From Deltaproteobacteria bacterium HGW-Deltaproteobacteria-8 (GTDB lineage Bacteria > Desulfobacterota > Desulfovibrionia > Desulfovibrionales > Desulfovibrionaceae), in the NCBI GenBank assembly GCA_002840405.1, contig PHAR01000003.1, forward strand, positions 1 through 64,000: DNA of 64,000 nt, in the 5' to 3' direction. Below are positions 8,060 through 25,471 of this stretch, one piece after another. The translations under genes and the position numbers were made by a program. Within the stretch, counting starts at the first letter, position 1. Every line of letters begins with the position of its first letter. The notes beneath the pieces were generated by a model. That model made no database searches and was not told where the DNA came from. It worked only from the letters and a program-made list of their open reading frames with translations.

Positions 8060-8066
8060 CTGGGAT

Positions 8067-8250: not shown

Positions 8251-8260
8251 TCTTCTCCCT

Positions 8261-9994: not shown

Positions 9995-12900
9995 ATGACC
10001 CAGCCTTCCAAAAAATTGACCCACGGCTTTGCCCTTGAACGCGAACAGGCCATCCCCGAACTCTCCGCCATTGCCCGCGTGTACCGCCACGCCAAGACCG
10101 GCGGGCGGCTCCTGTCCATCATCAGCCCGGACGAGAACAAGGTCTTCGGCATCGCCCTGCGCACTCCCCCGGCCGACAACACCGGCCTGCCGCACATCCT
10201 GGAGCACTCGGTCCTCTGCGGCTCCAAGAAATTCCCGGTCAAGGAGCCCTTCGTGGAGCTCATCAAGGGCTCGCTGAACACCTTCCTGAACGCCCTGACC
10301 TTCCCGGACAAGACCTGCTACCCCGTGGCCAGCGCCAACGTGCAGGACTTCTACAACCTTGTTGATGTCTACCTGGACGCCGTGTTCTTCCCCCGCCTGA
10401 CCGAGAACACGCTGAAGCAGGAGGGCTGGCACTACGACGTGGAGAGCGTCGACGCGCCGCTGGCCTACAAGGGCGTGGTCTTCAACGAGATGAAGGGCGC
10501 CTACTCCTCGCCCGAGAGCCTGCTCTCCGAGTATTCCCAGCGCGCCCTGTTCCCGGACACCTGCTATGGCCTGGACTCCGGCGGCGACCCGGAGCGCATC
10601 CCGGACCTGACCTTCCAGCAGTTCATGGACTTCCACACGCGCTACTACCACCCGTCCAATTCCTACGCCTTCTTCTCCGGCGACGACGATCCGGACAAGC
10701 GCCTGGCCCTCCTGGACGAGGTCTTCTCACAGTTCGAGGACGGCCGGGAGGCCGCCGCCACCTCGGCCATCGCCCTGCAGCCGCCCTTTGCCGAGCCCCG
10801 GCGCTCCACGCACCACTATGCGGCAGACGCGCCAGGCGAGGCGGACGGCGACGACGACGAAACGGGCGAAGCGGCCGAGACGGACGAGGCCCGGCCAAAG
10901 GCCATGTGCACCGTGAACTTCGGCCTGCCCGAGCCCGCCAGCGACCCCGCCCACCCGGACGATCCGGACGCCGGGCCGGACCTGAACCTGGCGCTCAGCG
11001 TCCTGGAGCACGTGCTCATCGGCCTGCCCTCCTCGCCCCTGCGCAAGGCCCTGGTCGACTCCGGCCTGGGCGAGGACCTGACCGGCGGCGGCCTGGAGAC
11101 CGATCTGCGCCAGCTGGCCTTCTCCGTGGGCCTCAAGGGCATGGACGCCGACACCGCCGAGACCTCGGCCACCAAGGTCGAGGAGCTGGTGCTGGCCACC
11201 CTGCGCGACCTGGCCGGTCTGACCGATCCGGCCAGCGGCCAGGCCCTGCACGCCGACGACATCGAAGCCGCCCTGAACAGCGTGGAGTTCGACCTGCGCG
11301 AGAACAACACCGGCAGCTACCCGCGCGGCCTGGTCGTCTTCTTTGAGGCCCTGTCCACCTGGCTCTACGGCGCAGACCCGCTCATGCTGCTGCCCTTCGA
11401 GGGGCCGCTGTCCCGCCTCAAGGCCCGGCTGGCTGCTGGCGAGCCCGTGTTCGAGGACCTCATCCGCTCGCAGTTTTTGAACAATCCCCACCGCGCCCTG
11501 GTGCTCCTGCTGCCCGACACGACCCTGGGCCAGAAGCGCGAGGCCGTTGAACAGGCCCGCCTGAGCGCCGTGCGCGACGCCCTGTCCCCGGCCGACCTGG
11601 AGCGCCTGGTTGCCGACACCCACGCCCTGCACGCCCTGCAGGAGGCCCCGGACTCCCCCGCCGACCTGGCGCTCATCCCGCGCCTGACCCTCTCCAACCT
11701 GCCGCTCAAGAACGCGGACATCCCCCACGAGCGCACCACCCTGGCCGGAGCCCCGGCCCACCTGCACGAGCTGCCCACAAGCTCCATCGTGTACCTGGAC
11801 CTGGGCCTGGACCTCAGCGCCGTGCCCGACCACCTCGTCCCGCTGGTGCCCATCCTGGGCCGCGCGCTGGTGGAAATGGGCACCAAGCGCACCTCCTTCG
11901 TGGACCTGACGCGCAAGATCGCCATGACCACCGGCGGCATCTGGCCGCAGTCCTTCGTGTCCACCGTGCGCAAGCCCGACGGCTCCTGCGCGGCCCAGCC
12001 CTGCCAGCGCCTGTTCCTGCGCGCCAAGGCCACGTTTGAGCGCACCCCGGCCCTGCTCGACATCCTCCAGGAGCTGCTGCTCGAGGCGGACTTCTCCGAC
12101 ACCGAACGCCTGGGCAAGATCGTGCTGGAAACAAAGGCCCGCCGCGAGCACCACCTCATCCCCTCGGGCCACGCCCTGGCCGCCTCGCGCCTTACGGCCC
12201 GTTTTGGGGCTGCCCAGGCCATGGCCGAGGCCATGCAGGGCCTGTCCGGCTTCTTCTACGTGCGCGAGCTGGCCAGCCGCATGGCCACAGACCCCGAAAG
12301 CGTGGTCCGCGACCTGACCACCCTGCTCGGCCTGCTGCTCAGGCGCTCGGCCCTGGTGACCAACATCACCGCCGACGGCCCGGCCCTTGCCGACACCGCC
12401 AAGCGCCTGGACAGCCTGCTCACCACCCTGCCCGACGCCACCCTGCCCGACGCCGCCCGCACCCTGCCCGTTCTGCCCGAACGCGAGGGCCTGGTCCTGC
12501 CCGCGCAGGTCAACTACGTCTGCACCGGGGCCAACGTGAAGGCCCTGGGCCACACGCCCGGCGCAGCCGCGGCCGTGGTCGGAAAGTTCCTGCGCGCGGG
12601 CTACCTCTGGGAACGCGTGCGCGTGCAGGGCGGAGCCTACGGCGCGGGCGTGTCCTACTCCCGCACCAGCGGCAGCCTCACCTTCACCTCCTACCGCGAC
12701 CCCAACCTGGCCCGCACGGTGGAGGCCTTCGCCGCTGTGGCGCCCTACCTCGCCAGCCTGGACCTCGACCCCTCGGAACTGGAAAAGAGCATCATCGGCT
12801 CCGTGGGCGACATCGACCACTACCTGCTGCCCGACGCCAAGGGCTTCACCGCGCTGGCCCGCGACCTCACCGGCGAGGACGAGGACTACCGCCAGGCCTC

Positions 12901-13054
12901 GCGCGACGCCATCCTGTCCGCCGGACCCCAGGACTTCCGCGAGTTCGGCGAGGCTGTCGAGGCCGCAACCACCAAGGGCTGCATCGTCATCGCTGGCGGA
13001 CGCGAAGGCCTGGCGGCCAGCGGCCTGGACCTGACGCTGACCAAGGTGCTGTAG
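9995..13054 (+). CDS. M16C zinc metalloprotease (presequence-protease/PreP-like)
   Basis: 1019 residues, the normal size for single-chain M16C enzymes that enclose and degrade peptides. Inverted zinc motif HxxEH at 67-71 (HILEH), with the distal Glu in FNEMKGAYSS about 100 residues later. The C-terminal half carries the R/Y pair region (GGAYGAGVSYSRTSGS) that binds the substrate backbone. An acidic insertion near residues 270-300 (runs of Asp/Glu) is not typical. The start ATG follows GAGGCG. No signal peptide, so it is presumably cytoplasmic and degrades oligopeptides. It is a single-gene unit between a divergent promoter region and repeat element D. Confidence 0.92.
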   Translation: MTQPSKKLTHGFALEREQAIPELSAIARVYRHAKTGGRLLSIISPDENKVFGIALRTPPADNTGLPHILEHSVLCGSKKFPVKEPFVELIKGSLNTFLNALTFPDKTCYPVASANVQDFYNLVDVYLDAVFFPRLTENTLKQEGWHYDVESVDAPLAYKGVVFNEMKGAYSSPESLLSEYSQRALFPDTCYGLDSGGDPERIPDLTFQQFMDFHTRYYHPSNSYAFFSGDDDPDKRLALLDEVFSQFEDGREAAATSAIALQPPFAEPRRSTHHYAADAPGEADGDDDETGEAAETDEARPKAMCTVNFGLPEPASDPAHPDDPDAGPDLNLALSVLEHVLIGLPSSPLRKALVDSGLGEDLTGGGLETDLRQLAFSVGLKGMDADTAETSATKVEELVLATLRDLAGLTDPASGQALHADDIEAALNSVEFDLRENNTGSYPRGLVVFFEALSTWLYGADPLMLLPFEGPLSRLKARLAAGEPVFEDLIRSQFLNNPHRALVLLLPDTTLGQKREAVEQARLSAVRDALSPADLERLVADTHALHALQEAPDSPADLALIPRLTLSNLPLKNADIPHERTTLAGAPAHLHELPTSSIVYLDLGLDLSAVPDHLVPLVPILGRALVEMGTKRTSFVDLTRKIAMTTGGIWPQSFVSTVRKPDGSCAAQPCQRLFLRAKATFERTPALLDILQELLLEADFSDTERLGKIVLETKARREHHLIPSGHALAASRLTARFGAAQAMAEAMQGLSGFFYVRELASRMATDPESVVRDLTTLLGLLLRRSALVTNITADGPALADTAKRLDSLLTTLPDATLPDAARTLPVLPEREGLVLPAQVNYVCTGANVKALGHTPGAAAAVVGKFLRAGYLWERVRVQGGAYGAGVSYSRTSGSLTFTSYRDPNLARTVEAFAAVAPYLASLDLDPSELEKSIIGSVGDIDHYLLPDAKGFTALARDLTGEDEDYRQASRDAILSAGPQDFREFGEAVEAATTKGCIVIAGGREGLAASGLDLTLTKVL

Positions 13055-13060
13055 GCAATA

Positions 13061-13357
13061 GCCTCCGGCGGCCAAGGGGCCTGAGGCCCCTTGGAACCCC
13101 CATTGGGCCTGAGACGGGGGTGGCATGGGCCGGTGCTCCGGCTTGGCCCTGGCAATAGCGCGCGGGTTTTCCGTCCAAGGCGACGGAAAGCCCCGCGCGC
13201 GGTTGGCACTTTTTGAAGCGTAGCCGAAAGCCAAGAGTAAGACGCGCTCCCGTGATTCACCCAAAGCCGAACGGGCTGTTTCAGGTTCCTCCTGAAACAG
13301 CCCGTTCGGCGTAATGGGGGGGTCTGGGGGGCCTCAGGCCCCACAGCCGCCGGAGGC
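13061..13357 (+). repeat. 3'-end repeat element, copy D (full length)
   Basis: Left terminal repeat 13061-13073, 7 nt after the protease stop; right repeat 13346-13357. Modules: GGGGCCTGAGGCCCC palindrome; imperfect GC-rich stem (13158-13175 with 13182-13200); GGTTGGC and CTCCCGTGATTCAC boxes; 20-bp stem (13266-13285 with 13291-13310, loop TTCCT). Its stem differs from copy A by A to C with the matching T to G opposite, a compensatory pair. The rest of the gap (13358-13484) holds further GC-rich repeats and the GGAGAG ribosome site of the next gene; I see no gene there. Confidence 0.88.
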
Positions 13358-13484
13358 AGGCCCCACAAACGGGGGTGCCGGGGGCGGAGCCCCTGGCCGC
13401 CGGGGCGAGGCCCCTGGGCGGTGTTGATGTTCTGAAAATGGAGGCGTAGCGTCCGGCCCTTCCCTTTATCCCTGGAGAGCGTCC

Positions 13485-14210
13485 ATGCTTGGTCCCCTGG
13501 TCAACAGCGTTTGTATTGTCATTGGTTCTGTGGTCGGCTCCTTCAGCGGCTCGTCCATCACCCCGGCCTTCCGCACCAAGTTCATGCACGTGTTCAGCTG
13601 CATCGCGCTGGGCATCGGCGTGGTCATGACCGCCAAGGCCAACGCCTTGCCATCGGTGATAGCGGCCCTGCTCTTTGGCACGCTCCTGGGCGAGGCCATT
13701 CACCTTGAGGCGGGCATCATGCGTGCGGCTTCCTGGCTCGCGGGGCTGTTTCCCGGCTCCGGGCCGCAACCCTCTGATTCCCAATCCTCTGGCCTGCCCG
13801 CCAAGGTTTTCCGAGACCAGTTCGCCGTAGCCACGGTGCTGTTCTGCTTCAGCGGGCTTGGCATCATGGGCTCCATGCGCGAGGGCATGACCGGCGACTC
13901 TGCGCTGCTCTTCGCCAAGGCCCTGCTTGACCTGCCCACAGCCATGCTCTTCGCCTCAGGCGCGGGGGCGGTGATGGGAGCCCTGGCCGTGCCGCAGTTC
14001 CTGCTGCAGATGTGCATACTGCTGGCGGCCCAGGCCGTGGTGCCGCTGACCACCCCGGCCATGGTGGCGGACTTCACGGCCTGCGGCGGCATCATCATGC
14101 TCGGCACCGGGCTGCGGATGTGCGGACTGCTGGAGGTTCCCATCCTGAGCATGCTGCCCAGCCTGTTCCTGGTCATGCCCATCACCGCCCTGTGGACGCA
14201 GGTGCTTTAG
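13485..14210 (+). CDS. DUF554 integral membrane protein
   Basis: 241 residues, almost entirely hydrophobic, with about six membrane segments. It has the Gly-rich start (GPLVNSVCIVIGSVVGSFSG), the GIGVVMTAKAN region and the FSGLGIMGSMREG segment characteristic of DUF554 (YdfK/YqgA-type) proteins. The start ATG is preceded by GGAGAG. The family is found widely in bacteria and is suspected to be a transporter or channel, but its function is not established. It stands alone between repeat elements D and E. Confidence 0.85.
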   Translation: MLGPLVNSVCIVIGSVVGSFSGSSITPAFRTKFMHVFSCIALGIGVVMTAKANALPSVIAALLFGTLLGEAIHLEAGIMRAASWLAGLFPGSGPQPSDSQSSGLPAKVFRDQFAVATVLFCFSGLGIMGSMREGMTGDSALLFAKALLDLPTAMLFASGAGAVMGALAVPQFLLQMCILLAAQAVVPLTTPAMVADFTACGGIIMLGTGLRMCGLLEVPILSMLPSLFLVMPITALWTQVL

Positions 14211-14247
14211 CCGCCTGCTCGCCGGGAGCCGCCGGGAGATGAGAGAG

Positions 14248-14492
14248 GCCTCCGGCGGCCTGGGGCCTGAGGCCCCCGGACCCCCCATTGGCCTGGACCG
14301 GAGCGGCAAGGGCGGATGCCTCGGTTGGGCTGGCTGCGAACATGCGCGCGGTTGGCCCCTTTTGGAAGGAGAGGAGATAGACTCTCTCCCGTGACCCACA
14401 CAAGCCGAAAGGGCTGTTTCAGGTTCCTCCTGAAACAGCCCTTTCGGCGTATAATGGGGGTTCGGGGGCCGCTGCCCCCGACCGCCGGAGGC
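14248..14492 (+). repeat. 3'-end repeat element, copy E
   Basis: Left end 14248-14260, right end 14482-14492, between two convergent genes (38 nt after the DUF554 stop, 4 nt from the trmI stop). 20-bp stem at 14404-14423 and 14429-14448, loop TTCCT, identical to copy A. Only the right half of the GC-rich stem region remains (GCGCGCGGTTGGCCCC). Confidence 0.85.
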
Positions 14493-14496
14493 TCTT

Positions 14497-15384
14497 CTAC
14501 TCCGTGGCTTCGGGGTCGTGCTCGGCGTCTTGGGCGTCGGAGCCTTCGCCGGTTTCCGGGCCGAGGTCCGGATCGGTTTCGGAGACGGCGATTTTGGCCG
14601 GGCGGGTGAAGGGCTCGGGGTTTTCCATGCAGCGCGCGAACACGAGGAAGCCGGTGTGTGCGACCATGCGGTCTTCGGGCCGCAGGCGGTCGGGCACGCA
14701 CTTGTAGCGGCGCACCAGGATTTCCAGGGCCTCGATCTCGGTGAAGGGTCCCTGTTCCAGGCCGCGGATGAGCTCGCTGACCTGGTTCACGGTGGGCAAG
14801 AGGAAGCCGCAGGTGGCGCCGGGGGTGACGGCGGCCGGGATGTGGCGCAGGCAGTCCTGGGGTTCGCGCACGTCCAGGAACAGGGCGTCCGCGCCGGTCT
14901 GCTCAAAGCCGGTCTCTTCGATGTCGGCCAGGTGCTGTTCCACGCGGTGGGAGAGGCCCACGCGGGCGAGGTTTTTCTGGGCCAGCTTGTAGAACTCTTC
15001 GCGGCGCTCGTAGGTGTAGACCTTGCCCGTGTCGCCCACGTAGGTGGCCAGCGCCAGGGTCAGGCCGGCGCTTCCGGTGCCGGTCTCGATGACGCGGCAA
15101 CCGGGCTGGATGCCCAGCTTGAGCAGCACGTAGCCGATTTCCTTGGGGTACATGATCTGGGTCTGGCGCTTGACGCCCTTGATGAGTTCGTACACCGTGG
15201 GCTTGAGGATGCGGTAGGGGTGGCCCAGGTGCGAGCGCACGATGCCGCCGAAGCCGGCCTCGGCGATTTCGGACATGAGGATGCGCCCGTCGTGGGTGTG
15301 GATTTCCTTGGCCGGGTCGAGCGCGTGCATGTAGCGCTTGCCCTTGGGGCTGATGACCAGGACGAGCTGTCCGGCTTCGATCAT
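14497..15384 (-). CDS. trmI: tRNA (adenine(58)-N1)-methyltransferase
   Basis: Methylates N1 of A58 in the tRNA T-loop using SAM; the bacterial enzyme acts as a homotetramer. 295 residues. A small N-terminal beta domain (LVLVISPKGKRYMHAL) precedes the catalytic domain, with RQTQIMYPKEIGYVLLKLGI and SAM motif ETGTGSAGLTLALA, then FLDVREPQD and FLLPTVNQV, all typical of TrmI. The last 35 residues are an acidic Asp/Glu tail not needed in the family. The start follows GGAGGAA by 6-7 nt. It is divergent from the radical SAM gene, about 100 nt away. Confidence 0.93.
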   Translation of the reverse strand: MIEAGQLVLVISPKGKRYMHALDPAKEIHTHDGRILMSEIAEAGFGGIVRSHLGHPYRILKPTVYELIKGVKRQTQIMYPKEIGYVLLKLGIQPGCRVIETGTGSAGLTLALATYVGDTGKVYTYERREEFYKLAQKNLARVGLSHRVEQHLADIEETGFEQTGADALFLDVREPQDCLRHIPAAVTPGATCGFLLPTVNQVSELIRGLEQGPFTEIEALEILVRRYKCVPDRLRPEDRMVAHTGFLVFARCMENPEPFTRPAKIAVSETDPDLGPETGEGSDAQDAEHDPEATE

Positions 15385-15484
15385 TTGGGTTCCTCCGTGC
15401 GCGGGTAAGGCCGCGCTGGGATGGGCCTACCGGGCCGGGCGTCCGGCGTCAAGTTCACGTCGATGCGCTGTGGGGGTTGCTTTG

Positions 15485-16531
15485 GTGCAGGTCGATCCTT
15501 TTCGCTATGTTTTCGGGCCGGTGCTGTCGGGCCGGTTGGGCCGCTCCCTGGGGCTGGATCTGCTGGGTTTCCGCGTCTGCTCCATGAACTGCGTGTACTG
15601 CGAGTCCGGGCCGCTCACGCGGCTGACGCTGGAGCGTGCGCGCTACGTGCCCGCCGGTGAGGTCCTGGGCGAGCTGGCCCGCTGGGAGGCCTCGCGCATG
15701 GCCACGGGCGGCGCGCTGCCCGATGTGGTGACCCTGGGCGGCCTGGGCGAGCCCACGCTGAACAGCGACATGCCCGCCATCATCGACGGGGTGCGCAGGC
15801 TGCTGCCGGGCGTGCCTGTGGCGGTGCTGACCAACTCGAGCCTCATGACCGACCCCCAGGTGCGCGCGGAGCTGGCGGCTGCGGACATGGTGCTGCCGAG
15901 CCTGGACAGCCTGGTGCCGGAAGAATTTGCGGCGCTGAACCGGGCGCACCCAGGGCTTGACCCCAAGAGCATTGCGGACGGCATCCTGGCTTTCCGGGAA
16001 GACAGCCAGGCCAGGCACACCAAGATGTTCCTGGAGGTTCTGCTGGTGGCCGGGGTGAATGACTCGGAGCGCAACCTGGAGCTTTTGGCCGCCTTCCGCA
16101 ATCATCTGCAACCCGACCGCGTGGACGTGGTGACCCTGTCGCGCCCTGGCACGAACCCCTCGGCCAAGGCCGTGGACCAGGCCACCCTGGATCGCTGGCG
16201 TGAGCGGCTGGCCGGGCAGACGGAGCTGGCTGTACAGGCCGGAGAACGCGACACCAGTCGTGGGCGCGCCGAAGGCGCTGCTGGCTCAAGGCTTGCAGTA
16301 CCCGAGAAAAATGGGCAAGAACAGAACAGAGGCTTGCAGCCGGAGGAAGTCCGCGCACGCCTTCTGGCCTCCCTGGCGCGCCGACCGCAGACGGGCGCGC
16401 AGCTGGCGGAGGCCCTGCCCGCGGATCTGGACGTGGTGACCACCGTCCTGGCGGAGCTGCTCGGCGCTGGCCGCATAACGGCGCGCCAGCAGGACGGGCA
16501 GGACGACTACTATCAGGCCCGGACCGAGTAG
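15485..16531 (+). CDS. Radical SAM protein with C-terminal winged-helix-like domain
   Basis: About 348 residues. The CxxxCxxC cluster motif (CSMNCVYC) lies near the N-terminus and is followed by LGGLGEPTLNSD and LPSLDSL, as in the TYW1-related COG0731 group of Fe-S oxidoreductases. Residues after about 285 form a predicted small winged-helix domain (LLASLARRPQTGAQLAEALPADLDVV), unusual for a plain radical SAM enzyme, after a Gln/Arg-rich linker. No ATG fits: the GTG at 15485, with GGGGG upstream, is my choice; an upstream in-frame ATG at 15338 would overlap the trmI start. The reaction is unknown; tRNA modification is possible from the family but not shown. Confidence 0.8.
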   Translation: MQVDPFRYVFGPVLSGRLGRSLGLDLLGFRVCSMNCVYCESGPLTRLTLERARYVPAGEVLGELARWEASRMATGGALPDVVTLGGLGEPTLNSDMPAIIDGVRRLLPGVPVAVLTNSSLMTDPQVRAELAAADMVLPSLDSLVPEEFAALNRAHPGLDPKSIADGILAFREDSQARHTKMFLEVLLVAGVNDSERNLELLAAFRNHLQPDRVDVVTLSRPGTNPSAKAVDQATLDRWRERLAGQTELAVQAGERDTSRGRAEGAAGSRLAVPEKNGQEQNRGLQPEEVRARLLASLARRPQTGAQLAEALPADLDVVTTVLAELLGAGRITARQQDGQDDYYQARTE

Positions 16532-16608
16532 CCGATGCCTCAAGGCCTCTCCACAACGTGTGGATGGCACGAATTTCTTCACAAATTTCTATCTTCCGAG
16601 GTTTTTTC

Positions 16609-18585
16609 ATGAGCGAATCCAACGATCCCCAGGCCCCGCCCCAGGTGGAAGGCCCTGGCAACGCCCCCTCCGGCACCGATCCTCAGCACGATGCCCAGCA
16701 GGGCGACGCCAAACCCAAGCGTTCACGCGGCCGTCGCGGCGGGCGCGGGCGCGGACGCGGGCGCAGCAAAACCGCTGCCGAGGGCGGCCAGTCCGATTCC
16801 ATGCAGCCTGATTCCATGCAGCCCGGCGCCCCCGGCCTGCCGCCCCAAGATGGCCAGAATTCATCCGGCCAGATGCCTTCCGGCCAGGCTGCCCCTCGCC
16901 GTCCGGCCCCGGCTGCCGAGCCCCGGCCCGAATCCGAGAGCGGCGAGGCTCCTGTCACGCCCAAGCCCAAGAGCCGCAGCCGCGGGCGCGGCAAGTCGAC
17001 AGCCACACAGGGCGCCACAAAAAGTGCCGCCACGGATGGAGCGGGCGCGGCCAAGACCTCCCCGGTGCCTGCCGCCAAGGAGTCAAAGGACGCCAAGGAG
17101 CCCAAGGACGCGGCCGACAGCAAGAAGAAGCGCGCCAAGAAGATGTTCATCGGCGTGCTGCCGAACGAGCTGGTGGAGGTGGTGCTCACCGAGGAGTCCT
17201 CGGTCCAGGAATACTACGTGGAGATGCTGCACCAGGCCAAGACCAAGGGCAACATCTACAAGGGCTACATCCACAACATCGACTCCGCGCTCCAGGCCGC
17301 CTTCATCAACTACGGGGCCGAGAGAAACGGCTTCCTGCAGATCGACGAGGTGCACCCGGAGTACTACCTGGGCTCCTACCCCCTCAAGAAGGGCGCGCGC
17401 TACCCGCTCATCCAGAAGGTGCTGCGCCCCGGCCAGGAGGTCATGGTCCAGGTCGTGAAGGAGCCCACGGGCAAGAAGGGCGCCTTTGTCACCTGCTACC
17501 TGTCCCTGCCCGGCCGCTATTTCGTCTACACCCTGGGCCGCGACCAGCAGGGCGTCAGCCGCAAGATCGAGGACGAGAAGGAGCGCGAGCGCCTGAAGTC
17601 CTGCATCGACCAGATCGGCCCGCCCGAGGGCGTGGGGCTCATCGTGCGCACGGCGGGCATCGGCCGCGCCAAGACCGAACTGACGCGCGACTACAAGATC
17701 CTGCACCGCCTCTGGGGCGAGATCAAGAAGAAGGCCCAGACCGAGAAGGCCCCGGCGCTGGTCTACAAGGAGCTGGACCTGGCCGTGCGCGCCGCGCGCG
17801 ACTACCTGACCCAGGACGTCACCGAGGTCTGGGTGGACGACCCCGACACCTTTGAGCAGATCCGCGACTACGTGGCCCTGGCCTTTCCCAAGAGCCCGAA
17901 CATGGTGAGGCTCCATGCCGACCACGACAAGACCATGTGGGAGCGCTTCGGCCTGACCAAGCAGGTGGAGCAGATCTACTCGCGCGAGGTCACCCTGCCC
18001 TCTGGCGGCCGCCTGGTGTTCGACCACACCGAGGCCCTGACCTCTGTCGACATCAACTCCGGCAAGATCGGCGGGGAGCAGAGCTTCGCCCGCATGGCCC
18101 AGAAGACCAACACCGAGGCTGCCGAGGAGATCGTGCGCCAGCTGAAGCTGCGCGACATCGGCGGACAGATCGTCATCGACTTCATCGAGATGAAGGATCC
18201 CAAGCACATCCGCGACGTGGAGAAGGTCGTGCGCCAGGCCATGAAGAACGACCGCGCGCGCACCGACGTCTCCGGCATCTCGCCCTTCGGCCTCATGGAG
18301 TTGGTGCGCCAGCGCCTGGGCTCTTCGGCCATCAGCGTGTCCACCGAACCCTGCCCCTGCTGCGGCGGCACGGGCATCCGCAGAAACCTCGAGTGGCAGT
18401 CCCTGCAGGCCATGAAGACCATCCACCGCCTGCTGCGCCGCCCCGGCTGCCCGAACCCGCTCCAGGTGCCCCTGGGCCAGGAGCTGGCCATCTACATGTT
18501 GAACAACAAGCGCGAGCTCTTGACCGAGATGGGCGCGCGCCTGGACAACCGCGTGGAGATCGTTGTGGATACGAAACTGCCATAA
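16609..18585 (+). CDS. rng: Ribonuclease E/G family endoribonuclease
   Basis: Single-strand-specific endoribonuclease for mRNA decay and rRNA/tRNA processing. 658 residues. The first 180 residues are low-complexity, rich in Arg/Gly, Pro, Gln and Lys, and probably disordered RNA-binding sequence. Then come an S1 domain (about 215-330) and the catalytic domain with magnesium-binding Asp481 (SVDINSG) and Asp524 (IVIDFIEM), 43 residues apart as in E. coli RNase E. A zinc-link motif CPCC holds Cys582 and Cys585. The protein ends soon after the zinc link, as in RNase G, so there is no long degradosome scaffold at the C-terminus; the extra region is at the N-terminus instead. GAGG precedes the ATG by 7 nt. 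Confidence 0.94.
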   Translation: MSESNDPQAPPQVEGPGNAPSGTDPQHDAQQGDAKPKRSRGRRGGRGRGRGRSKTAAEGGQSDSMQPDSMQPGAPGLPPQDGQNSSGQMPSGQAAPRRPAPAAEPRPESESGEAPVTPKPKSRSRGRGKSTATQGATKSAATDGAGAAKTSPVPAAKESKDAKEPKDAADSKKKRAKKMFIGVLPNELVEVVLTEESSVQEYYVEMLHQAKTKGNIYKGYIHNIDSALQAAFINYGAERNGFLQIDEVHPEYYLGSYPLKKGARYPLIQKVLRPGQEVMVQVVKEPTGKKGAFVTCYLSLPGRYFVYTLGRDQQGVSRKIEDEKERERLKSCIDQIGPPEGVGLIVRTAGIGRAKTELTRDYKILHRLWGEIKKKAQTEKAPALVYKELDLAVRAARDYLTQDVTEVWVDDPDTFEQIRDYVALAFPKSPNMVRLHADHDKTMWERFGLTKQVEQIYSREVTLPSGGRLVFDHTEALTSVDINSGKIGGEQSFARMAQKTNTEAAEEIVRQLKLRDIGGQIVIDFIEMKDPKHIRDVEKVVRQAMKNDRARTDVSGISPFGLMELVRQRLGSSAISVSTEPCPCCGGTGIRRNLEWQSLQAMKTIHRLLRRPGCPNPLQVPLGQELAIYMLNNKRELLTEMGARLDNRVEIVVDTKLP

Positions 18586-18615
18586 CCGGGCGGAACTCCG
18601 CCGGGGGGGTGGGCC

Positions 18616-18828
18616 GTGGAAGGATTACTCGTCCTGCTGCTGTTCCTTATCCTTTGGCTGGTTGACAGAATGCTGCATGCTGCGGTGCATTGGTCCCGCA
18701 GCCGGGCCGAACTGGCGAAGGCCGTGCGCCGCGAAAACGCGGCCGTGCGGTTGCGGCTGGCCGGCGCACCGGAAGCACAACCGTCCACAAAACAACAAGA
18801 CGAGCCATGCCCAGCCCCGGACTCCTGA
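18616..18828 (+). CDS. Small single-pass membrane protein, unknown function
   Basis: 70 residues starting at a GTG. One strongly hydrophobic segment (LLVLLLFLILWLVDRML, residues 4-20) is followed by a basic amphipathic stretch (SRSRAELAKAVRRENAAVRLRLAG) and a polar tail. A G-rich run upstream may serve as ribosome site. It lies 30 nt after the RNase E/G stop, and its last 22 nt overlap the start of queH, suggesting translational coupling. I do not recognise a family. It could anchor a partner to the membrane, but this is only inferred from the shape. Confidence 0.5.
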   Translation: MEGLLVLLLFLILWLVDRMLHAAVHWSRSRAELAKAVRRENAAVRLRLAGAPEAQPSTKQQDEPCPAPDS

Positions 18829-19442
18829 CTCCGCCCGCCGCGCCCGGAGAAAACGCCATCCTGCTGCACGCCTGCTGCGGGCCGTGCAGCATCATGTCTG
18901 TGTTGCGCCTGCGCGACCTGGGCCTTGTTCCCACGCTCTTCTTCTACAACCCGAACATCCACCCGCTGTCCGAGTACCTGCGCCGCCGCGAGGGCCTGCT
19001 GGCCGTGGCCGCGCGCCTGGACGCGCCCGTCATCCTGGCCGACGAGGCCGACCCCGCCGCCGCGCACCCTGGCCCCTGGCTTGAGGCCATGGCGGCCCTC
19101 GGCCCCGGCATGGACGACATGAAGCAGCGCTGCCCGCAGTGCTACGACCTGCGCCTCGTGGTCGCCGCCCGGACCGCCCGCGACCTGGGCTTCGCGCAGT
19201 TCACCACCTCGCTCCTCTACAGCCGCTATCAGAACCGCCAGGCCATTCTGGCCTCTGGCGCGCGCCAGGCCGGGCCAGACCTCGCCTTCCTGCCCGAGGA
19301 CTTCCGCCCCGGCTTGACCGAGGGCGTGCGCCTGTCCAAGGAGTGGGGCATCTACCGCCAGCAATATTGCGGCTGCCTGTTGAGCGAGCACGAGCGCTAC
19401 AAGCGCCTGCTGATCAATGTGACGTCCGGCTCGGAGACTTAA
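18807..19442 (+). CDS. queH: Epoxyqueuosine reductase QueH (DUF208)
   Basis: Last step of queuosine biosynthesis: reduces epoxyqueuosine in tRNA to queuosine. 211 residues. It replaces the cobalamin-dependent QueG in many bacteria. Family signature cysteines are visible: CCGPC (23-27), RCPQCYDLR in the middle and YCGC near the C-terminus. These bind a 4Fe-4S cluster and a second metal. The ATG at 18807 matches the family start; upstream in-frame codons would lengthen it by 39 unconserved residues. It overlaps the small membrane protein gene by 22 nt. The earlier pathway enzyme QueA is encoded 39 kb away at 57932. Confidence 0.92.
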   Translation: MPSPGLLTPPAAPGENAILLHACCGPCSIMSVLRLRDLGLVPTLFFYNPNIHPLSEYLRRREGLLAVAARLDAPVILADEADPAAAHPGPWLEAMAALGPGMDDMKQRCPQCYDLRLVVAARTARDLGFAQFTTSLLYSRYQNRQAILASGARQAGPDLAFLPEDFRPGLTEGVRLSKEWGIYRQQYCGCLLSEHERYKRLLINVTSGSET

Positions 19443-19565
19443 CAGCCCGCAACGACACGCCTTTCCTGGACTTTACTATTTCATACGATAATGGTAGACA
19501 TTCTCCTGCGCCTGCCCGTCCCTCCGGGCAGACCGCCGTAAAGGCACGCGCCTACCCGAGGATTT

Positions 19566-21002
19566 ATGACATACAAGCTCTCTGACCTCATTGACCGCCG
19601 CGAACTCCAGCTCATGGCCAAGGCCTGCCACAAGGCTTGCGGCGTGGCCGTCAGCATCAAGGACGCCGGCGACGACCGCGTGCTCGCTGGCGCGGGCTGG
19701 CAGGTCATCTGCGCCGGGTTCCACCGCCTGCACCCCAAAAGCCGCGAGCGCTGCATCCTGAGCCGGACCGGGCTCCAGGTCTCGGGCCTGGACGCCTTTG
19801 TCCAGGACGAGCTCTGCCAAAACGGCCTGCGTCACCTGGCCATCCCCATGCTCGTGGAAGGCCAACACCTGGGCACGTACTACCTGACCCAGTTCCTCTA
19901 CGACACCGACCTCGGGGACCGCGGGCGCTTCGCGGCCCAGGCCGTGGAGTTCGGCTACGAGGCGCAGGAATATCTGAACGCCCTGGACGAGGTGCCTGTG
20001 CTCAGCCGCGAGCGCGCCAAGGAGATCGTGTCCTACGTGGGCACCTTCTCCCGGCTCATCGCCGACCTGGCCACGCGCAACCTGCGCCTCAAGCTGGCCC
20101 TGGAGGAGAACAAGCACATCCAGGCCCGCCTGCGCGACAGCCAGGAGCGCTACCGCTTCCTGGCCGAGAACTCGGCGGACATCATCTGGCGGCTGGACGC
20201 CGACCACCGCTTTGTCTACGCCAGCCCGGCCGACGAGCGCACACGCGGCTTCCACTACACCGAAACCCTCGGGCAGAGCCTGTGGGACGCCATGCCGCCC
20301 GACCTCGTGGACCACATGCAGAAGCGCTGCCGGGAGTACCTCCTCTCCATCAAGGACAACCCGGACCCTGCACCCATGCGCGTGGAAGCCCAGCTCCTGC
20401 ACAAGAACGGCGGCAAGCTCTGGGCCGAGATCCTCTCCACCCCGGTGCGCGAAGATGACGGCACGGTCACGGGCTACCACCTTGTGGCCCGCGACATCAC
20501 CAAGCGCAAGGCCTACGAGGAGCAGCTCGTGTTCCTGTCCACCCACGACACGCTCACCGGGCTTTACAACCGCGCCCACTTTGAGGCCGAGTTCCAGCGC
20601 GCCGCCCAGGGCCGCCTGCTGCCCGTCAGCGTGATCATGGCCGACGTGGACGGGCTCAAGACCGTCAACGACAATCTGGGCCACGCCGCTGGCGACGAAC
20701 TCATCAAGGACGCCGCCAACATCCTGCGCAAGGCCTTCCGCTCCGGCGACCTTGTGGCGCGCCTGGGCGGCGACGAGTTCGCCGTGCTGCTCCCTGGCGC
20801 GGACGAGGCCGCTGTGGGCCTGTCCCAAAAGCGCGTTTTCGCGGAGATGGAGAACGTACGCCATCGGCCCACGCCCTTCCCCGTGCGGCTGTCCCTGGGC
20901 GCGGCCACGGCCAGGACCGCCAAGGAGATGGAGCACGTCCAGCGCGAGGCTGACCAGCGCATGTACGAGGACAAGTCCGCACATAAGACCGCGCAGCCCT
21001 GA
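19566..21002 (+). CDS. Diguanylate cyclase with PocR and PAS sensory domains
   Basis: Makes the second messenger c-di-GMP. 478 residues, no membrane segment. Order: PocR ligand-binding domain (about 1-170, with paired Cys in CAGFHRLHPKSRERC and FAAQAVEFGYEAQEY), a coiled linker, a PAS domain (about 195-320) and a GGDEF domain with intact GGDEF at 401-405. The inhibitory I-site RSGD lies five residues before GGDEF, so product feedback is expected. The start follows GAGG by 5-6 nt. The leader (19443-19565) has a -10-like GATAAT (19487-19492) without a good -35 and a hairpin CTGCCCG/CGGGCAG (19512-19531). PocR domains are thought to sense small hydrocarbon ligands; the ligand here is unknown. 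Confidence 0.92.
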   Translation: MTYKLSDLIDRRELQLMAKACHKACGVAVSIKDAGDDRVLAGAGWQVICAGFHRLHPKSRERCILSRTGLQVSGLDAFVQDELCQNGLRHLAIPMLVEGQHLGTYYLTQFLYDTDLGDRGRFAAQAVEFGYEAQEYLNALDEVPVLSRERAKEIVSYVGTFSRLIADLATRNLRLKLALEENKHIQARLRDSQERYRFLAENSADIIWRLDADHRFVYASPADERTRGFHYTETLGQSLWDAMPPDLVDHMQKRCREYLLSIKDNPDPAPMRVEAQLLHKNGGKLWAEILSTPVREDDGTVTGYHLVARDITKRKAYEEQLVFLSTHDTLTGLYNRAHFEAEFQRAAQGRLLPVSVIMADVDGLKTVNDNLGHAAGDELIKDAANILRKAFRSGDLVARLGGDEFAVLLPGADEAAVGLSQKRVFAEMENVRHRPTPFPVRLSLGAATARTAKEMEHVQREADQRMYEDKSAHKTAQP

Positions 21003-21116
21003 GCAAAACGTCGGTATTCTGACCAAGGCCCTTGGCCCCGCACTCCGCAAATCCCCCGCAGCCCTTGAGCGCCAGGCAATTCCTGCCCCTGGCACCGCTT
21101 TTGCTAACACCTTGGC

Positions 21117-22202
21117 ATGGAAACCTCCTGCTGCCTCCACCCGCGCTCCTTGCGCACCCTGCACAGGGCCCCGGTCCGGACCCTGGCCCGCGTGCTGCTG
21201 CTGGGCCTGCTGGGCCTCGCGCTGTTCGGGGCTGGCGGCTGCGCCATGCTGCCCTTCGCCCTTTCCACCACGGCATCCTTCGCCGCGCCCAGAGTGGCCT
21301 CCCTGGCCTTCAGCGGCGTGAAGAGCGCCTACCAGGGCGCGCAGCTGGCCGCGGACGAGCGCGACATGAACACCATCATGCGCGACAACATGCTCTCCAT
21401 GAAGGCCAAAAGCTCCCTGCTGACCGAAAAGAGCGCTGCGGACGTCAACGTCTACGCCTACAACGGCGACATCTTCGCCGTGGGCGTGGTGGACAACGAG
21501 GACCAGCGCAACCATGTCATCCGCACCCTCCAGGCCGTCAAGGGCGTGGACGAGATCAAGGGCGTCCTGCGCATGCGCACCCTCGAGACCTCCTACGCCG
21601 GGCTCAAGGACGACTTCCTGGAGAACTCCACGCGCATGGCCCTGGGCCGGTACGTGCTGCACAAGAACTCCGGCATCGAAATTTCCGCCGTGCAGGGCGA
21701 GATCTGCCTCATGGGCGTGGTCGGCACCTATGCCGAAGCCCTGGACCTCATCCAGTACGTGGAATCCGTGTCCGGCACCCGCGCCATGTCGCTCCTTGCC
21801 ATCCGCGATGAATACGCCACCGGCAAGAACGAAAACAACGCGCGCTACCTCCTGGCGCCCAGCCCTGAACACGCCCCCGTGCGCCCGCAAATCGCCGCAG
21901 CACACCCCGCAAACCTGCCCGCATCACCCGTCATCGCCCGCAAGCTCAAGGCCGATACCACCGAAACCCAACCCGATTTGCCCGTGGCCTGGAACAAGGC
22001 CCGCCAACGCCTCGGCATCCGCCTGCAAACCCTTGCCCAGCAGGCCAGCAACCCCACAGCCAAGGCCGAACTGCTCACCCTGGCCGGTCAGGTCACCACC
22101 GACCGCGACCTGTCCATCACCGACCGCCTGTCCGTGGCCGCCGCTCAAGCCACCAACCAGCAGGCCCGGCTCAAGATCCAGTCCCTGCTCGCCCTGTACT
22201 GA
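21117..22202 (+). CDS. BON-domain lipoprotein
   Basis: 361 residues. A long N-region is followed by a hydrophobic core and lipobox GAGGC, with Cys42 as the predicted lipidation site, so it is probably anchored in the outer or inner membrane facing the periplasm. Residues about 95-240 hold two BON-type repeats (SAADVNVYAYNGDIFAVGVVDNEDQRNHV and IEISAVQGEICLMGVVGTYAEALDLI), as in OsmY or DolP-like proteins that bind phospholipid or preserve envelope integrity. The C-terminal 110 residues are helical and Ala/Gln-rich. Stand-alone gene, ending 18 nt before repeat element F. Confidence 0.82.
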   Translation: METSCCLHPRSLRTLHRAPVRTLARVLLLGLLGLALFGAGGCAMLPFALSTTASFAAPRVASLAFSGVKSAYQGAQLAADERDMNTIMRDNMLSMKAKSSLLTEKSAADVNVYAYNGDIFAVGVVDNEDQRNHVIRTLQAVKGVDEIKGVLRMRTLETSYAGLKDDFLENSTRMALGRYVLHKNSGIEISAVQGEICLMGVVGTYAEALDLIQYVESVSGTRAMSLLAIRDEYATGKNENNARYLLAPSPEHAPVRPQIAAAHPANLPASPVIARKLKADTTETQPDLPVAWNKARQRLGIRLQTLAQQASNPTAKAELLTLAGQVTTDRDLSITDRLSVAAAQATNQQARLKIQSLLALY

Positions 22203-22219
22203 CCCGCAGCAAAGCGGGA

Positions 22220-22524
22220 GCCTCCGGAGGCCGGGTGGCATGATGCCCCCCGGACCCCCTCATATGGCCTGAGGCTGACGGTGCAACCACGTCCATGTCC
22301 CGGCTTGGCTTGGCCCTGGCTATAGCGCGCGGATTTTTCGTCGAAGACTCCGAAAAGCCCCGCGCGCGGTTGGCCCTTTTTGAAAGCGCTGCCGAAAGGA
22401 CAAAGACACTCTCCCATGACTCACCCGAAGCGAAATGTTCCTGTCGACGGCTTTGCGTCGACAGGAACATTTCGCATAATGGGGGGGGGTCTGGGGGGCC
22501 TCAGGCCACACAGCCGCCGGAGGC
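22220..22524 (+). repeat. 3'-end repeat element, copy F (alternative stem)
   Basis: Left end 22220-22232, right end 22513-22524. It keeps the GGACCCCCTCATATGGCCTGAGG module, an imperfect GC-rich stem (GCGCGCGGATTTTTCG against CCGAAAAGCCCCGCGCGC) and the CTCCCATGACTCAC box. The usual 20-bp stem-loop is replaced by a different perfect 20-bp stem: arm GCGAAATGTTCCTGTCGACG (22430-22449), loop GCTTTG, matching arm 22456-22475. The flanking CGCATAATGGGGGG follows as in other copies. Confidence 0.88.
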
Positions 22525-22561
22525 ATTGCCTTTATCTGGGTGCTCAGGGTACAGGGGAGGC

Positions 22562-23764
22562 ATGAATGTCATCATCCTGCACCGCAATTTTCCTGGCCAG
22601 TTCCGCCACATAGCGCGTCATCTGGCGAAGAACGGGCATGGCGTGATCGGCGTGGGCAATGCCCAGGCGCCAGGCCTGCCCGGGGTCAACATGGTGCGCT
22701 ACGACTCACAAAAGCTTGCAATCGCCAGCCACCGCCATGCGCAGACGATTTTAAGCGGCGAGGCCCACGGCGTGGTGGTGGCGCACATCCTGACCCAGCT
22801 GCGCGCCAAGGGCCTTGTGCCCGATGTGGTGCTGGCGCATCCCGGCTGGGGCGAGGCGCTCTACGTCAAGGATGTGTTCCCAAAGGTCCGGCTGGTCTCG
22901 CTGTTCGAGTTCTACTACCATGCCGAGGGCGTGGACGTGGGCTTTGAGCCGGGCTCAGAGGCGGACTTCGAGCAGCGCGCCAACCTGCGCTGCCGCAACA
23001 TGCTGCATTTGGCCAACCTGGAGCTCTGCGACGCTGCGGTCTCGCCCACCAGCTGGCAAAAGTCCCTGCACCCGGCCGCGTACCAGCACAAGATCCAGGT
23101 GCTGCACGAGGGCGTGGACACCACGCACATGACGCCGGACTCCGAGGCGCGCTTTCTCCTGCCCGATGGCCGCGCGCTGACTCCCGGCGACCCGGTCATC
23201 ACCTTCGTGGCGCGCAACCTGGAGCCCTACCGGGGCTTCCACAGGCTCATGCACGCCCTGCCGGAGATCCAGCGCCGCTGCCCCCAGGCCGTGACAGTCA
23301 TCGCGGGCGGCGATGGCGTAAGCTATGGCCGCGCGCCCAAGGACGCCGCCAACTGGCGCGAGAAGCTTTTGGCCGAACTCGGCCCGAGACTCGACCTCTC
23401 CCGCGTGGTCTTCACCGGGCAGATCCCCTACAAAGACTACCGCTCACTGTTGCAGGTCTCGGCCGCACACGTGTACCTGACCTACCCCTTCGTGCTGTCC
23501 TGGTCCATGCTGGAAGCCATGAGCTGCGGCTGCCTGGTGCTGGGCTCGGCCACGCCGCCGGTCCAGGAAGTGCTGCGCCACGGCGAAAACGGCCTGCTCT
23601 TCGACTTCTTCGACGCCGAGGCCCTGGCCAGCCTGGTGGAAAGCGCCCTCACCCGGCCCGGCGACTACGCCCCCCTGCGCCAGCAAGCCCGCAAAGACAT
23701 CATGGCGGGCTACGACATCCAGAACGGCGTTGCCCGCTACATGGCGCTGCTGCAGGGCTCATAG
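22562..23764 (+). CDS. Family 4 glycosyltransferase
   Basis: 400 residues, two Rossmann-like domains of the GT-B fold. N-terminal NVIILHRNFPGQFRHIA resembles bacterial GT4 enzymes; the C-terminal domain shows VTFVARNLEPYRGFHRLMHALPEIQ, a GQIPYKDYRSLLQVSAAHVYLTYPF segment and the donor-binding ESMSCG-like stretch (LEAMSCGCLVLGS). The start ATG is preceded closely by GGGGAGG; a longer frame upstream would run through repeat element F and is rejected. It probably adds a sugar to lipopolysaccharide, a capsule or a glycoprotein; donor and acceptor cannot be told. It is flanked by repeat elements F and G. Confidence 0.87.
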   Translation: MNVIILHRNFPGQFRHIARHLAKNGHGVIGVGNAQAPGLPGVNMVRYDSQKLAIASHRHAQTILSGEAHGVVVAHILTQLRAKGLVPDVVLAHPGWGEALYVKDVFPKVRLVSLFEFYYHAEGVDVGFEPGSEADFEQRANLRCRNMLHLANLELCDAAVSPTSWQKSLHPAAYQHKIQVLHEGVDTTHMTPDSEARFLLPDGRALTPGDPVITFVARNLEPYRGFHRLMHALPEIQRRCPQAVTVIAGGDGVSYGRAPKDAANWREKLLAELGPRLDLSRVVFTGQIPYKDYRSLLQVSAAHVYLTYPFVLSWSMLEAMSCGCLVLGSATPPVQEVLRHGENGLLFDFFDAEALASLVESALTRPGDYAPLRQQARKDIMAGYDIQNGVARYMALLQGS

Positions 23765-23774
23765 GCCGGGGAAA

Positions 23775-24125
23775 GCCTCCGGCGGCCTGGGGCCTGGATG
23801 CCTCCGGCGGCCTGGGGCCTGGGGCCTGGGATGCCTCCGGCGGCCAAAGGGCCTGAGGCCCTTTGGAATCCCCATATGGCCTGGGCTTGCGTACCCACGT
23901 CCCATGCCTTGGCTTGGCCCTGGCAATGCGCGCGGGGCTTTCGAGCGTCTGCGCTCGAAAGCCCCGCGCGCGGTTGGCCCTTTTTGGAGCGGAACCGAAA
24001 GACCAAGAAAATATGTTCTCCCGTGGCTCACAAGCCGAAAGGGCTGTTTCAGGTGCCTCCTGAAACAGCCCTTTCGGCGCGATGAGGGGGTTCGGGGGGC
24101 ATCATGCCCCCCGACCGCCGGAGGC
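23775..24125 (+). repeat. 3'-end repeat element, copy G (longest, two perfect stems)
   Basis: The left terminal repeat occurs three times in a row (23775, 23800, 23833); right end 24115-24125. It fills the gap between convergent genes, 11 nt and 9 nt from their stop codons. It has two perfect 20-bp hairpins: a GC-rich one (23928-23947 with 23952-23971, loop TCTG) and the common one (24034-24053 with 24059-24078, loop TGCCT instead of TTCCT). Confidence 0.9.
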
Positions 24126-24133
24126 GCTCACTC

Positions 24134-25471
24134 TCAGACGAGCCTTTCTTCCTGGGCGTAGCGTTTGACGAAGCCTTTGGCCTCGTCAAGGTTGGTGACG
24201 TCGCCGGCGATCTGGGCCTTGAGCAGAGCGTCGCGGATGATTCCCACGGTGGGGCCGGGGTTAAGCCCGGTGGCCTGCATGATGTCGCGGCCGTTGAGCA
24301 GCGGTTCGAGCGAGTCTTCGGGCGTATCGGCGCGTTCGAACATCTTCAGGTTGTGGTTGAATTCGCGGTAGGAGCCGTTTCTGGCCTTGATGTCGGCGCG
24401 GACCATCTCCAGGATGCGCGGGTACTCGTCGATGGCCTTGAGGCGGCGCATGCCCTTGTCGGTGAGCATGAAGTGCGGGCGCATGTGGTCGCGCACCAGG
24501 GTGCAGATGAGGTCGATGTCCTCGGGCGGGAAATGCAGCCGGTTCAGCAGCTTGCGCGTGACCTTGGCGCCCACGCGGTGGTGCTGCAGGAAGCTCCACT
24601 GGCCCTCGGAATATTCGGCGGTGTAGAGCTTGCCCACATCGTGGAACATGCAGGCGATGGTGCCGTACCAGTCGTAGGGCAGCACCTCGGGATAGTGGCG
24701 CATGACGTCGAGGGTGTGCCTGAAGACCGTCTCTTCGCCTTCCTCGGGGTTCTTGATCTGCTTCACGCGGGACAGAGCGGCGATCTCCGGCAGCAGGCCG
24801 TGCAGGATCTGGCACTCGAACAGGAGCTGCACGAACTGCCAGAGGTTCTCGGCCTCGACCTTGCGGAACTCGTCCATGATGTCGGCCACGGGGCAGTAGT
24901 CCAGCACGCGGCGCGCGCCCCGGACGATGGCCATCCAGGTGTTCTGCTCGATGGGCAGGTGGTAGTTGACGGAGAAGCGCATGGCCCGCACGGACAGCAG
25001 GTAGTCGCGCTTGAGCACCTGGTCGGGGAAGCCCTTGATGCGCACCATGCCCTCGTCGAACCCGGCCAGGCCGTGGTCCTGCTCCTGGGGGCTGGGCAGG
25101 TACGGGCAGGCGGCGGAGAGCGGAATCTCGCCCTTCTGCTCCAGGACCTTGAGCAGGCGCGGGGTGAGCCGGGCCACGCACTCCTCGGGGTGGGTGCCGT
25201 CTTCCACGCTGGCTGTGTGGAAATAGAAGGTCACGCTGTTCTGACGGATGAGCCCGGTGACGCCGTGCTCGGTGCTGGCCTCCAGGTTCGGGAACAGGCG
25301 TTTCAGGCCGTCTAAGTCCAGCTCCGTGCTGATGTCCATGGCCAGCTCGTCGCCGGTTCCGGCCTCTGCCAGGACGGTCTTCTGCAGGCGGGCGTTGATG
25401 ACGTAGGCGTCGTACCCGTTGCGCATGATGCTTTTGCACAGGCTGACGGCGTCCTTGAAAGGCTGACTCAT
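24134..25471 (-). CDS. HD-domain protein with degenerate CCA/poly(A)-polymerase-like N-terminus
   Basis: 445 residues. Overall layout follows the tRNA nucleotidyltransferase/poly(A) polymerase class II fold: head domain, RNA-binding helices (KRDYLLSVRAMRFSVNYHL is the usual RED-PLRLLRAVRFA region), then an HD domain with FRHTLDVMRHY...CMFHDVGKLY and a second His motif. The nucleotidyltransferase signatures are lost: the GGAVRD loop reads VINARLQ, the metal-binding DxD is AMDIST, and RRDFTINAL is absent. So the HD phosphohydrolase half is likely active and the transferase half is not. GGAGGAAG precedes the ATG. It lies 83 nt after pyrC, probably the last gene of the same transcript. Substrate unknown. 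Confidence 0.82.
   Translation of the reverse strand: MSQPFKDAVSLCKSIMRNGYDAYVINARLQKTVLAEAGTGDELAMDISTELDLDGLKRLFPNLEASTEHGVTGLIRQNSVTFYFHTASVEDGTHPEECVARLTPRLLKVLEQKGEIPLSAACPYLPSPQEQDHGLAGFDEGMVRIKGFPDQVLKRDYLLSVRAMRFSVNYHLPIEQNTWMAIVRGARRVLDYCPVADIMDEFRKVEAENLWQFVQLLFECQILHGLLPEIAALSRVKQIKNPEEGEETVFRHTLDVMRHYPEVLPYDWYGTIACMFHDVGKLYTAEYSEGQWSFLQHHRVGAKVTRKLLNRLHFPPEDIDLICTLVRDHMRPHFMLTDKGMRRLKAIDEYPRILEMVRADIKARNGSYREFNHNLKMFERADTPEDSLEPLLNGRDIMQATGLNPGPTVGIIRDALLKAQIAGDVTNLDEAKGFVKRYAQEERLV

Follow-up and report, generated by a model that had tools for sequence, protein, structure and literature searches.

A modular palindromic intergenic repeat with different 20-bp stems at one hairpin position in a genus of Desulfovibrionaceae

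The stretch of DNA analysed here (the window, 64,000 nt) carries several copies of an intergenic repeat in which one hairpin position is filled by stems of different sequence and set length. Among the genomes searched, the repeat was not seen outside one genus of sulfate-reducing bacteria (Desulfovibrionaceae), and no gene was called inside it. Within each of two stem types, A and F, base pairing is kept by paired changes while the sequence drifts, and comparison of orthologous loci shows that one gene gap can hold different stem types in different species. Gene calling, which was crude, places the repeat after stop codons, mostly between convergent genes. We lean slightly towards reading it as a modular repeat whose hairpin forms transcript 3' ends, as a terminator or stabiliser, and whose stems are exchanged by recombination.

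Results and Discussion

Structure of copy F and of the other copies in the window

The ground plan of the element consists of inverted ends (GCCTCCGGCGGC...), a short hairpin at each end, a middle hairpin, a box, a 20-bp stem and a G-run. The parts of copy F, the copy with which this analysis began, are listed in Table 1, in which the boundaries of its middle hairpin were set by eye; the counterparts of this hairpin in other copies are of 18-20 bp. Its left half shares 96% identity over 50-51 nt with two more copies in the same genome. Predicted pairing suggests that the box and the G-run after the stem may form an outer clamp below the stem. The genes on either side of copy F are codirectional and encode a BON-domain protein (21117-22202, +) and a family-4 glycosyltransferase (22562-23764, +).

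Table 1. Positions of copy F, its parts and the other repeat copies in the window
Feature	Position	Strand	Basis or remark
Copy F, whole repeat element, 305 nt	22220-22524	+	End motifs, length, folding, gene calls
Copy F, end motif GCCTCCGGAGGCC	22220-22232		1 mismatch relative to GCCTCCGGCGGCC
Copy F, end motif GCCTCCGGCGGCT	22512-22524	-	1 mismatch relative to GCCTCCGGCGGCC
Copy F, left terminal half, containing a short hairpin and ending in GGACCCCCTCATATGGCCT	22220-22270	+	Repeat family D7
Copy F, middle hairpin, GCGCGCGGATTTTTCG ... CGAAAAGCCCCGCGCGC	22325-22369	+	Repeat family D6; paired in fold
Copy F, box CTCCCATGACTCACCC	22411-22426	+	Exact match
Copy F, 5' arm of F-type 20-bp stem	22430-22449	+	
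Copy F, loop GCTTTG, 6 nt	22450-22455	+	
Copy F, 3' arm of F-type 20-bp stem	22456-22475	+	
Copy F, ATAATGGGGG, then right terminal half (inverted counterpart of left end)	22476-22524	+	Repeat family D5, end motif
Type-A copy cut by contig end, stem 9-53	1-100	+	End coordinate from repeat family D2 (4-100); BLAST match 1-84
Type-A copy, variant stem GCCGAAAGGGCTGGATCAGG at 8159-8203	8067-8250	+	Convergent genes
Type-A copy, variant stem GCCGAACGGGCTGTTTCAGG at 13266-13310	13061-13357	+	
Type-A copy, stem 14404-14448	14248-14492	+	Convergent genes
Type-A copy, stem 24034-24078, downstream of glycosyltransferase gene	23833-24125	+	Convergent with HD-domain gene 24134-25471 (-)

A preliminary description of this DNA had reported a 20-bp hairpin at 22430-22475, set in the normal frame of the repeat. 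The hairpin is real, with arms complementary at 20 of 20 positions around the GCTTTG loop. The frame is conserved but not identical, as exact CTCCCATGACTCACCC has a single occurrence in the genome, in copy F, and exact ATAATGGGGG has one further copy in the window, at 14451. The arm length of 20 bp is indeed that of the other copies, but the loops differ, with 6 nt in type F and 5 nt in type A.

On a rough estimate, chance alone would not produce a perfect 20-bp hairpin in a sequence of 64 kb. The region 22210-22530 has a folding z of -8.05, and a 96-nt piece with stem F has z values of -8.3 on the + strand and -9.4 on the - strand (0 of 200 shuffles equally stable). A scan of the window for inverted repeats (minimum arm 16 nt, maximum separation 20 nt) returned 16 pairs, seven of which are perfect 20-mers. 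Of these seven, five belong to type-A right stems, one to copy F and one to a middle hairpin (23928-23971). Beyond copy F, the window holds five copies or part-copies of the repeat, every one with a type-A right stem (GCCGAAAGGGCTGTTTCAGG). A window scan against Rfam 15 at gathering score gave no matches, and a tRNA scan of the window gave nothing.

Three further features were observed. The end motif GCCTCCGGCGGCC occurs in tandem, 25-28 nt apart, just outside some elements (window 23775-23822; in this genome, G000, also C2:73099-73192 and C2:339914-339978, given as contig and position). Three assembly contig ends lie in or beside repeat copies (window 1-100; G000 C11:276491-276694 and C13:85233-85301), so copies at assembly breaks are probably under-counted. 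Finally, a 12-nt-periodic repeat at 61925-62335 (18 overlapping copies, family D1) lies mostly inside a called gene (61381-62349, +).

Distribution of the stem types

In all, 136 elements were collected from four genomes, of which 44 have both ends (at most 2 mismatches); the median length of these 44 is 315 nt. The set from this genome is a lower bound, being drawn from the best 40 BLAST candidates for each search and, for the end motif, from 100 of 175 places. The genus is inferred to be Humidesulfovibrio-like, and type-A stems were found in 50 contig stretches, including those of a named Humidesulfovibrio MAG. At no more than 3 mismatches, type-A stems are present in 7 of 15 genomes of the genus (39 in G000, 27 in G002, 35 in G006, 11 in G012, 13 in G014, 5 in G007 and 3 in G009) and in none of the 273 family genomes from other genera that were searched.

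F-type stems number 20 copies in 5 of the 15 genus genomes (four each in G000 and G002, three in G006, one in G009 and eight in G012), and types A and F coexist in five genomes. The search pattern for F covered 13 + 6 + 13 inner bases with at most 3 mismatches, the outer 7 bp being outside the pattern; in all 20 copies the outermost pair, at position 20, is nevertheless G-C, and the next pair outward cannot form. The loop is GCTTTG in 19 of the 20, and GTA follows the stem in 17. Two of the 20 stems have no non-Watson-Crick position (the window copy has none), 14 have one and four have two to four. The preliminary description had named, as an outcome that would speak against it, a unique copy F among copies with random stem lengths; instead, there are four F stems in the genome and 20 in the genus.

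All four true F-type stems of G000 are on contig C2 (22430, 73508, 126158 and 349943), and an F-like fifth is on C1; C2 thus holds 4 of the 5 F or F-like copies and 16 of the 50 elements (hypergeometric p 0.03). Some type-A copies have their loop inverted, with AGGAA for TTCCT in an unchanged frame (for instance at G000 C5:156147 and C3:396448), as if the palindrome had flipped.

Pairing, covariation and stem length

The 17 distinct stems of F or F-like type have changes on both sides at 12 of 20 pairs, with 97.9% of cells paired; among 33 distinct A stems, the corresponding values are 11 of 20 pairs and 96.7%. For both types, 0 of 500 shuffles scored as high, and sliding the partner arm gave far lower values. 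The type-A alignment used 33 of 37 distinct rows, leaving out non-5-nt loops, repeated stems and 4 stems that had slipped badly. The two types were counted separately, because aligning them jointly put A and F one base out of register. The window stem itself provides an example of paired change, having AT at positions 6-7 where its kin mostly have GG or AG, with the other arm matching the change. A perfect 20/20 stem is present in 86 of the 136 elements. G-T wobbles show no common strand preference, with 17 on the + and 20 on the - strand in type A and 18 and 3, respectively, in type F. The reading that stem length and pairing outweigh sequence is thus well supported, both by the strong covariation in A and F and by the recurrence of F stems bounded at 20 bp.

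Most type-A copies were found using the A pattern itself. A census anchored on the end-repeat instead (about 278 kb) gave 26 hairpins that start no more than 20 nt from an end-repeat. Most (17) have 20-bp stems and five have 19 bp, with single cases of 18, 14, 23 and 24 bp; the census passes over some known copies, copy F among them. A 19-bp family (GCCGCGAATTCTGCGGCGG and relatives, with a 3-nt loop) lies directly between two end halves and has no box, and a 23-bp stem at C11:129166 is placed likewise, also with no box. Longer stems at C3:396537 and C11:137527 adjoin one end, with an A stem at the other end. Several stem types at set lengths (A, F and others at 19, 20 and 23-24 bp) therefore exist, which is what the preliminary description had proposed to look for.

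Gene context and a possible role at transcript 3' ends

Gene neighbours were taken from a simple home-made codon-usage caller. By these calls, 104 elements have both neighbours, of which 74 are in convergent, 20 + 9 in codirectional and 1 in divergent pairs; the window background of 46 neighbouring gene pairs comprises 6 convergent, 33 codirectional and 7 divergent. In 94 of the 104 elements, though not in copy F, the neighbouring gene on the stem side has its 3' end towards the element. On the strand of the stem-side gene, the 8 nt after the stem contain a mean of 4.0 T, versus 1.7 on the other strand, and at least 4 T are present in 99 of 135 stems versus 1 of 135.

This context and the T tails point to a role at transcript 3' ends, which the hairpin may fulfil in more than one way. 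At least 5 T in 8, the mark of an intrinsic terminator, follow only 30 of 135 stems, and a consensus terminator scan at this threshold found none at any element hairpin in window 7900-24300. Because the tails are weaker than those of consensus terminators, a stabilising hairpin or a rho-assisted ending would be as likely. The F and A stems are also about twice as long as a usual intrinsic-terminator stem.

Several relatives lack the element in the convergent gap that follows the glycosyltransferase gene and have a hairpin followed by a T-run there instead. A script detected it on the - strand of G004 and G001 and, more weakly, of G003; in G010, G005 and G014 it was recognised by eye. In G014 (L175), this is a bare hairpin, CCGAAAGGGCTGGCTCAG ..., then TTTTT on the - strand, with no end-repeats. 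It looks like an ordinary terminator, and type A could be related to it. At copy F itself, the stem probably has little terminator work, since the neighbouring genes are codirectional. The - strand tail after the stem, TTCGGGTG, is poor as well (3 T of 8), and the function of copy F is the least certain among the elements.

Stem type at orthologous loci

The glycosyltransferase gene to the right of copy F has close orthologs in nine other genomes, with identities of 84% to G002 and 79% to G006. The sequence to its left looks different, judged by eye, in G012, G004, G010, G003, G005 and G001, so the site comparison covers G002, G006 and G014. At the copy F locus in G002 (L172/L213) and G006 (L173/L232), an element of the same family lies between the same gene pair and carries a type-A stem. 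Because both relatives, at these identities, have type A there, the simplest history would be that the locus changed from A to F on the present lineage. To the left of the same gene in G005 (L179), a lone hairpin, GTCCAGAGGGCCTCGTGCCCTCTGGCGGGG, resembles an end half and has no 20-bp stem beside it.

Mixed types were also found more widely, in a set restricted to stems no more than 12 mismatches from A or F (40 positions), with pairs matched on one flank counted apart. Matching on both flanks gave 27 orthologous pairs, 20 A/A, 7 A/F and 0 F/F, values close to the 21.1, 5.6 and 0.4 that independent assignment of types predicts. Restricting these to the 25 unambiguous pairs leaves 18 A/A, 7 A/F and 0 F/F, the seven mixed pairs representing six loci and one of them relying on an A-like stem without a box (C3:344549). 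The 27 one-flank pairs (23 A/A, 4 A/F, 0 F/F) fit independent assignment more poorly (16.6, 9.5 and 0.9 predicted). At C2:73508, single-flank matches have F stems in G002 and G012 too, and this F stem may have been inherited.

These pairs bear on the possibility that A and F descended from one ancestral stem by slowly accumulated compensatory mutations, with no exchange of cassettes, which we regard as improbable. Stem F had earlier been called unrelated to the stem of the other copies; it is indeed a different stem from type A, but the wording was slightly overstated, since both begin GC(C)GAAAGG-like. The F consensus and the A consensus agree at 9 of 20 positions when aligned ungapped, but with gaps allowed this shared start brings the shuffle p to 0.034 for the window stem and to 0.002-0.03 for four species versions (several comparisons, p uncorrected), a weak similarity in the outer stem that slow divergence would explain. 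It would also account for an intermediate stem, GCAAAGGGCTCCTTCCGGCG with loop GCTTTG, at C1:339489, and for hybrid stems at C1:69711 and C8:283986, in which the lower 13 bp are as in type A and the top and loop differ. However, the F stems of different species resemble one another and five genomes contain both types, so the A/F split is old, and point mutation at each locus would not give an A/F difference at one locus between close relatives. Slow divergence therefore appears already strained by the mixed orthologous pairs.

Orientation varies between species as well. The element is inverted relative to its flanks in 4 of the 27 both-flank pairs, although for two of these four the orientation of one element is ambiguous. 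Among the 27 one-flank pairs, 10 are inverted. Such inversions, together with the inverted loops, are what might be expected if the palindrome acted as DNA, as a folded single strand or cruciform serving as a recombination or nucleoid-protein site, with the position at gene ends reflecting tolerance only. The attC site of integrons, an imperfect hairpin with core boxes that is used with an integron integrase, would be comparable in working by its shape. Type-A pairing kept with no consistent wobble strand bias would also suit a DNA-level site. However, the T-rich tail on one strand and the strong orientation preference relative to the neighbouring gene fit RNA more easily, and a DNA-level site is judged distinctly improbable.

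What is exchanged between copies

The segments of copy F mostly have different nearest relatives: both ends match the copy at C6:233 kb well, the middle hairpin matches copies on C8 and C13, and the stem matches the F copies of G006. Tests of the frame used 126 of the 136 elements, leaving out those with short flanks, and the permutation leaves recent duplicates in. Stem type F goes with the sequence of the 30 nt closest to it: of the three elements most similar there, a fraction of 0.55 are F, compared with 0.215 on average after permutation (0 of 500 permutations as high). It also goes with the bases after the stem (GTA). For the parts further away the association is weak or absent, with p 0.048 at both the middle hairpin and the right end and p 0.17 at the far left, and the outer frame of copy F is equally close to A and F copies.

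Orthologous elements in the same orientation have a median left-frame score of 83, versus 23 for random elements. The ortholog took first rank in 4 of 72 same-orientation comparisons and fell in the upper half in 51 of them; among 18 inverted comparisons, it was in the upper half in 6. Orthologous elements are thus more alike than random ones, and turnover is incomplete. The preliminary description had proposed that stems are replaced as modules by recombination. This is plausible, given the differing stem types at orthologous loci, but unproven: a cassette of stem and near flanks moving within a shared frame would fit, and so would replacement of the whole element followed by recombination. 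The remainder of the element shows little locus specificity either, so the data are compatible with both.

A REPIN- or MITE-like history, in which A and F are separate mobile subfamilies inserting repeatedly in tolerant gaps at gene ends, copy F is a fresh F insertion and the hairpin serves transposition and not the host, would account for several of these observations, namely the many dispersed copies, the F stems with their own adjacent box and GTA, and the reversed orientation in some both-flank pairs. Similarly, at the copy F gap, G014 has the same gene pair and no element, and a shared ATTGCC lies at a varying distance from the element's right end (0 nt in G000, 18 nt in G002 and 22 nt in G006). 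However, a search for the Y1/RAYT transposase family (PF01797) was negative in all 15 genus genomes, while 5 of 14 control genomes were positive. Among the 44 two-ended elements, those with a full 14 nt on both sides show no excess flank identity that would indicate a target-site duplication (lengths 2-11, shuffle p at least 0.18). Additionally, a fresh F insertion is at odds with an outer frame as near to A as to F copies, and the preference for one orientation at gene ends would also need selection or targeting. Mobile DNA alone is therefore considered possible but rather doubtful.

Under the preferred reading, a hairpin and short T-rich tail, transcribed from the stem-side gene, would form the mRNA 3' end as a weak intrinsic terminator or a block to exonucleases. 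Given such a role, geometry rather than sequence would be selected. The shared frame would serve as the substrate for homologous recombination or gene conversion, through which cassettes and whole elements would pass from copy to copy, and elements could flip by means of their inverted ends. More tentatively, there might be a genome-wide pool of interchangeable 3'-end hairpin cassettes, in which gene conversion between dispersed copies rewrites the stem as a unit; sequence turnover would then be fast, and the constant 20-bp (or 19-, 23-24-bp) geometry would be set by RNA polymerase, RNase III or an exonuclease.

The same structural slot filled by different sequences at orthologous sites offers a natural experiment that separates selection on hairpin geometry from selection on sequence. 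It also raises the questions of how a repeat spreads with no evident transposase, whether repeats become the terminators of their neighbours and why stems stop at about 20 bp.

Comparison with known systems

No record of this repeat family was noticed in the literature searched, a limited open-access set, and the family is a modular palindromic intergenic repeat that corresponds to no full definition among the known kinds tested. It has the stable hairpin just downstream of a stop codon that characterises intrinsic (rho-independent) terminators in the 94 elements described above, copy F not among them, and resembles such terminators in its GC-rich hairpin and T-rich tail; it differs in that the tail mostly falls short of 5 T in 8 and the stem is embedded in a repeat with inverted ends. 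As in MITEs, the ends are terminal inverted repeats, but with no target-site duplication detected, and no Rfam 15 family matched.

The family shares with REPIN and REP-BIME elements of Pseudomonas and E. coli many short non-coding extragenic palindromes in inverted pairs (here 39 type-A stems at up to 3 mismatches and four F stems, with inverted ends) that form hairpins. According to PMC3116915, the inner part of a REPIN matters for its length and hairpin capacity, and compensatory changes are common, an emphasis on length and pairing that is similar to that found here. PMC3733652 places REPs mostly downstream of genes, between convergent and unidirectional ORFs, and describes a GTAG or CGTC tag at one end of the palindrome. 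Unlike these elements, the Humidesulfovibrio-like repeat has no RAYT in any of the 15 genus genomes, is longer, adds by eye a middle hairpin and a box, and has a stem that differs at orthologous sites.

Three further repeats are similar in part. The SPRITE of Streptococcus pneumoniae has an 18-bp duplex, is likely terminator-like and is over-represented between convergent genes (PMC3049150), and its uridine-rich tract is much longer than usual; likened by description only, both repeats have a long duplex between convergent genes, and the tail of the present one, at about 4 T in 8, is weaker. In the Correia elements of Neisseria (CREE/NEMIS), which are mobile, the inverted ends fold, in the mRNA, into a hairpin that RNase III binds or cleaves (PMC2649163), so that the stem consists of the element ends, whereas here it is an internal 20-bp cassette. 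Finally, the BOX element of Streptococcus is a modular intergenic repeat with exchangeable parts and a predicted fold, over-represented between convergent genes (PMC3049150), and its variation lies mainly in the number of boxB modules. Both BOX and the Humidesulfovibrio-like repeat are thus modular and occupy gaps between convergent genes, but the latter fills one hairpin position with different stems of set length.
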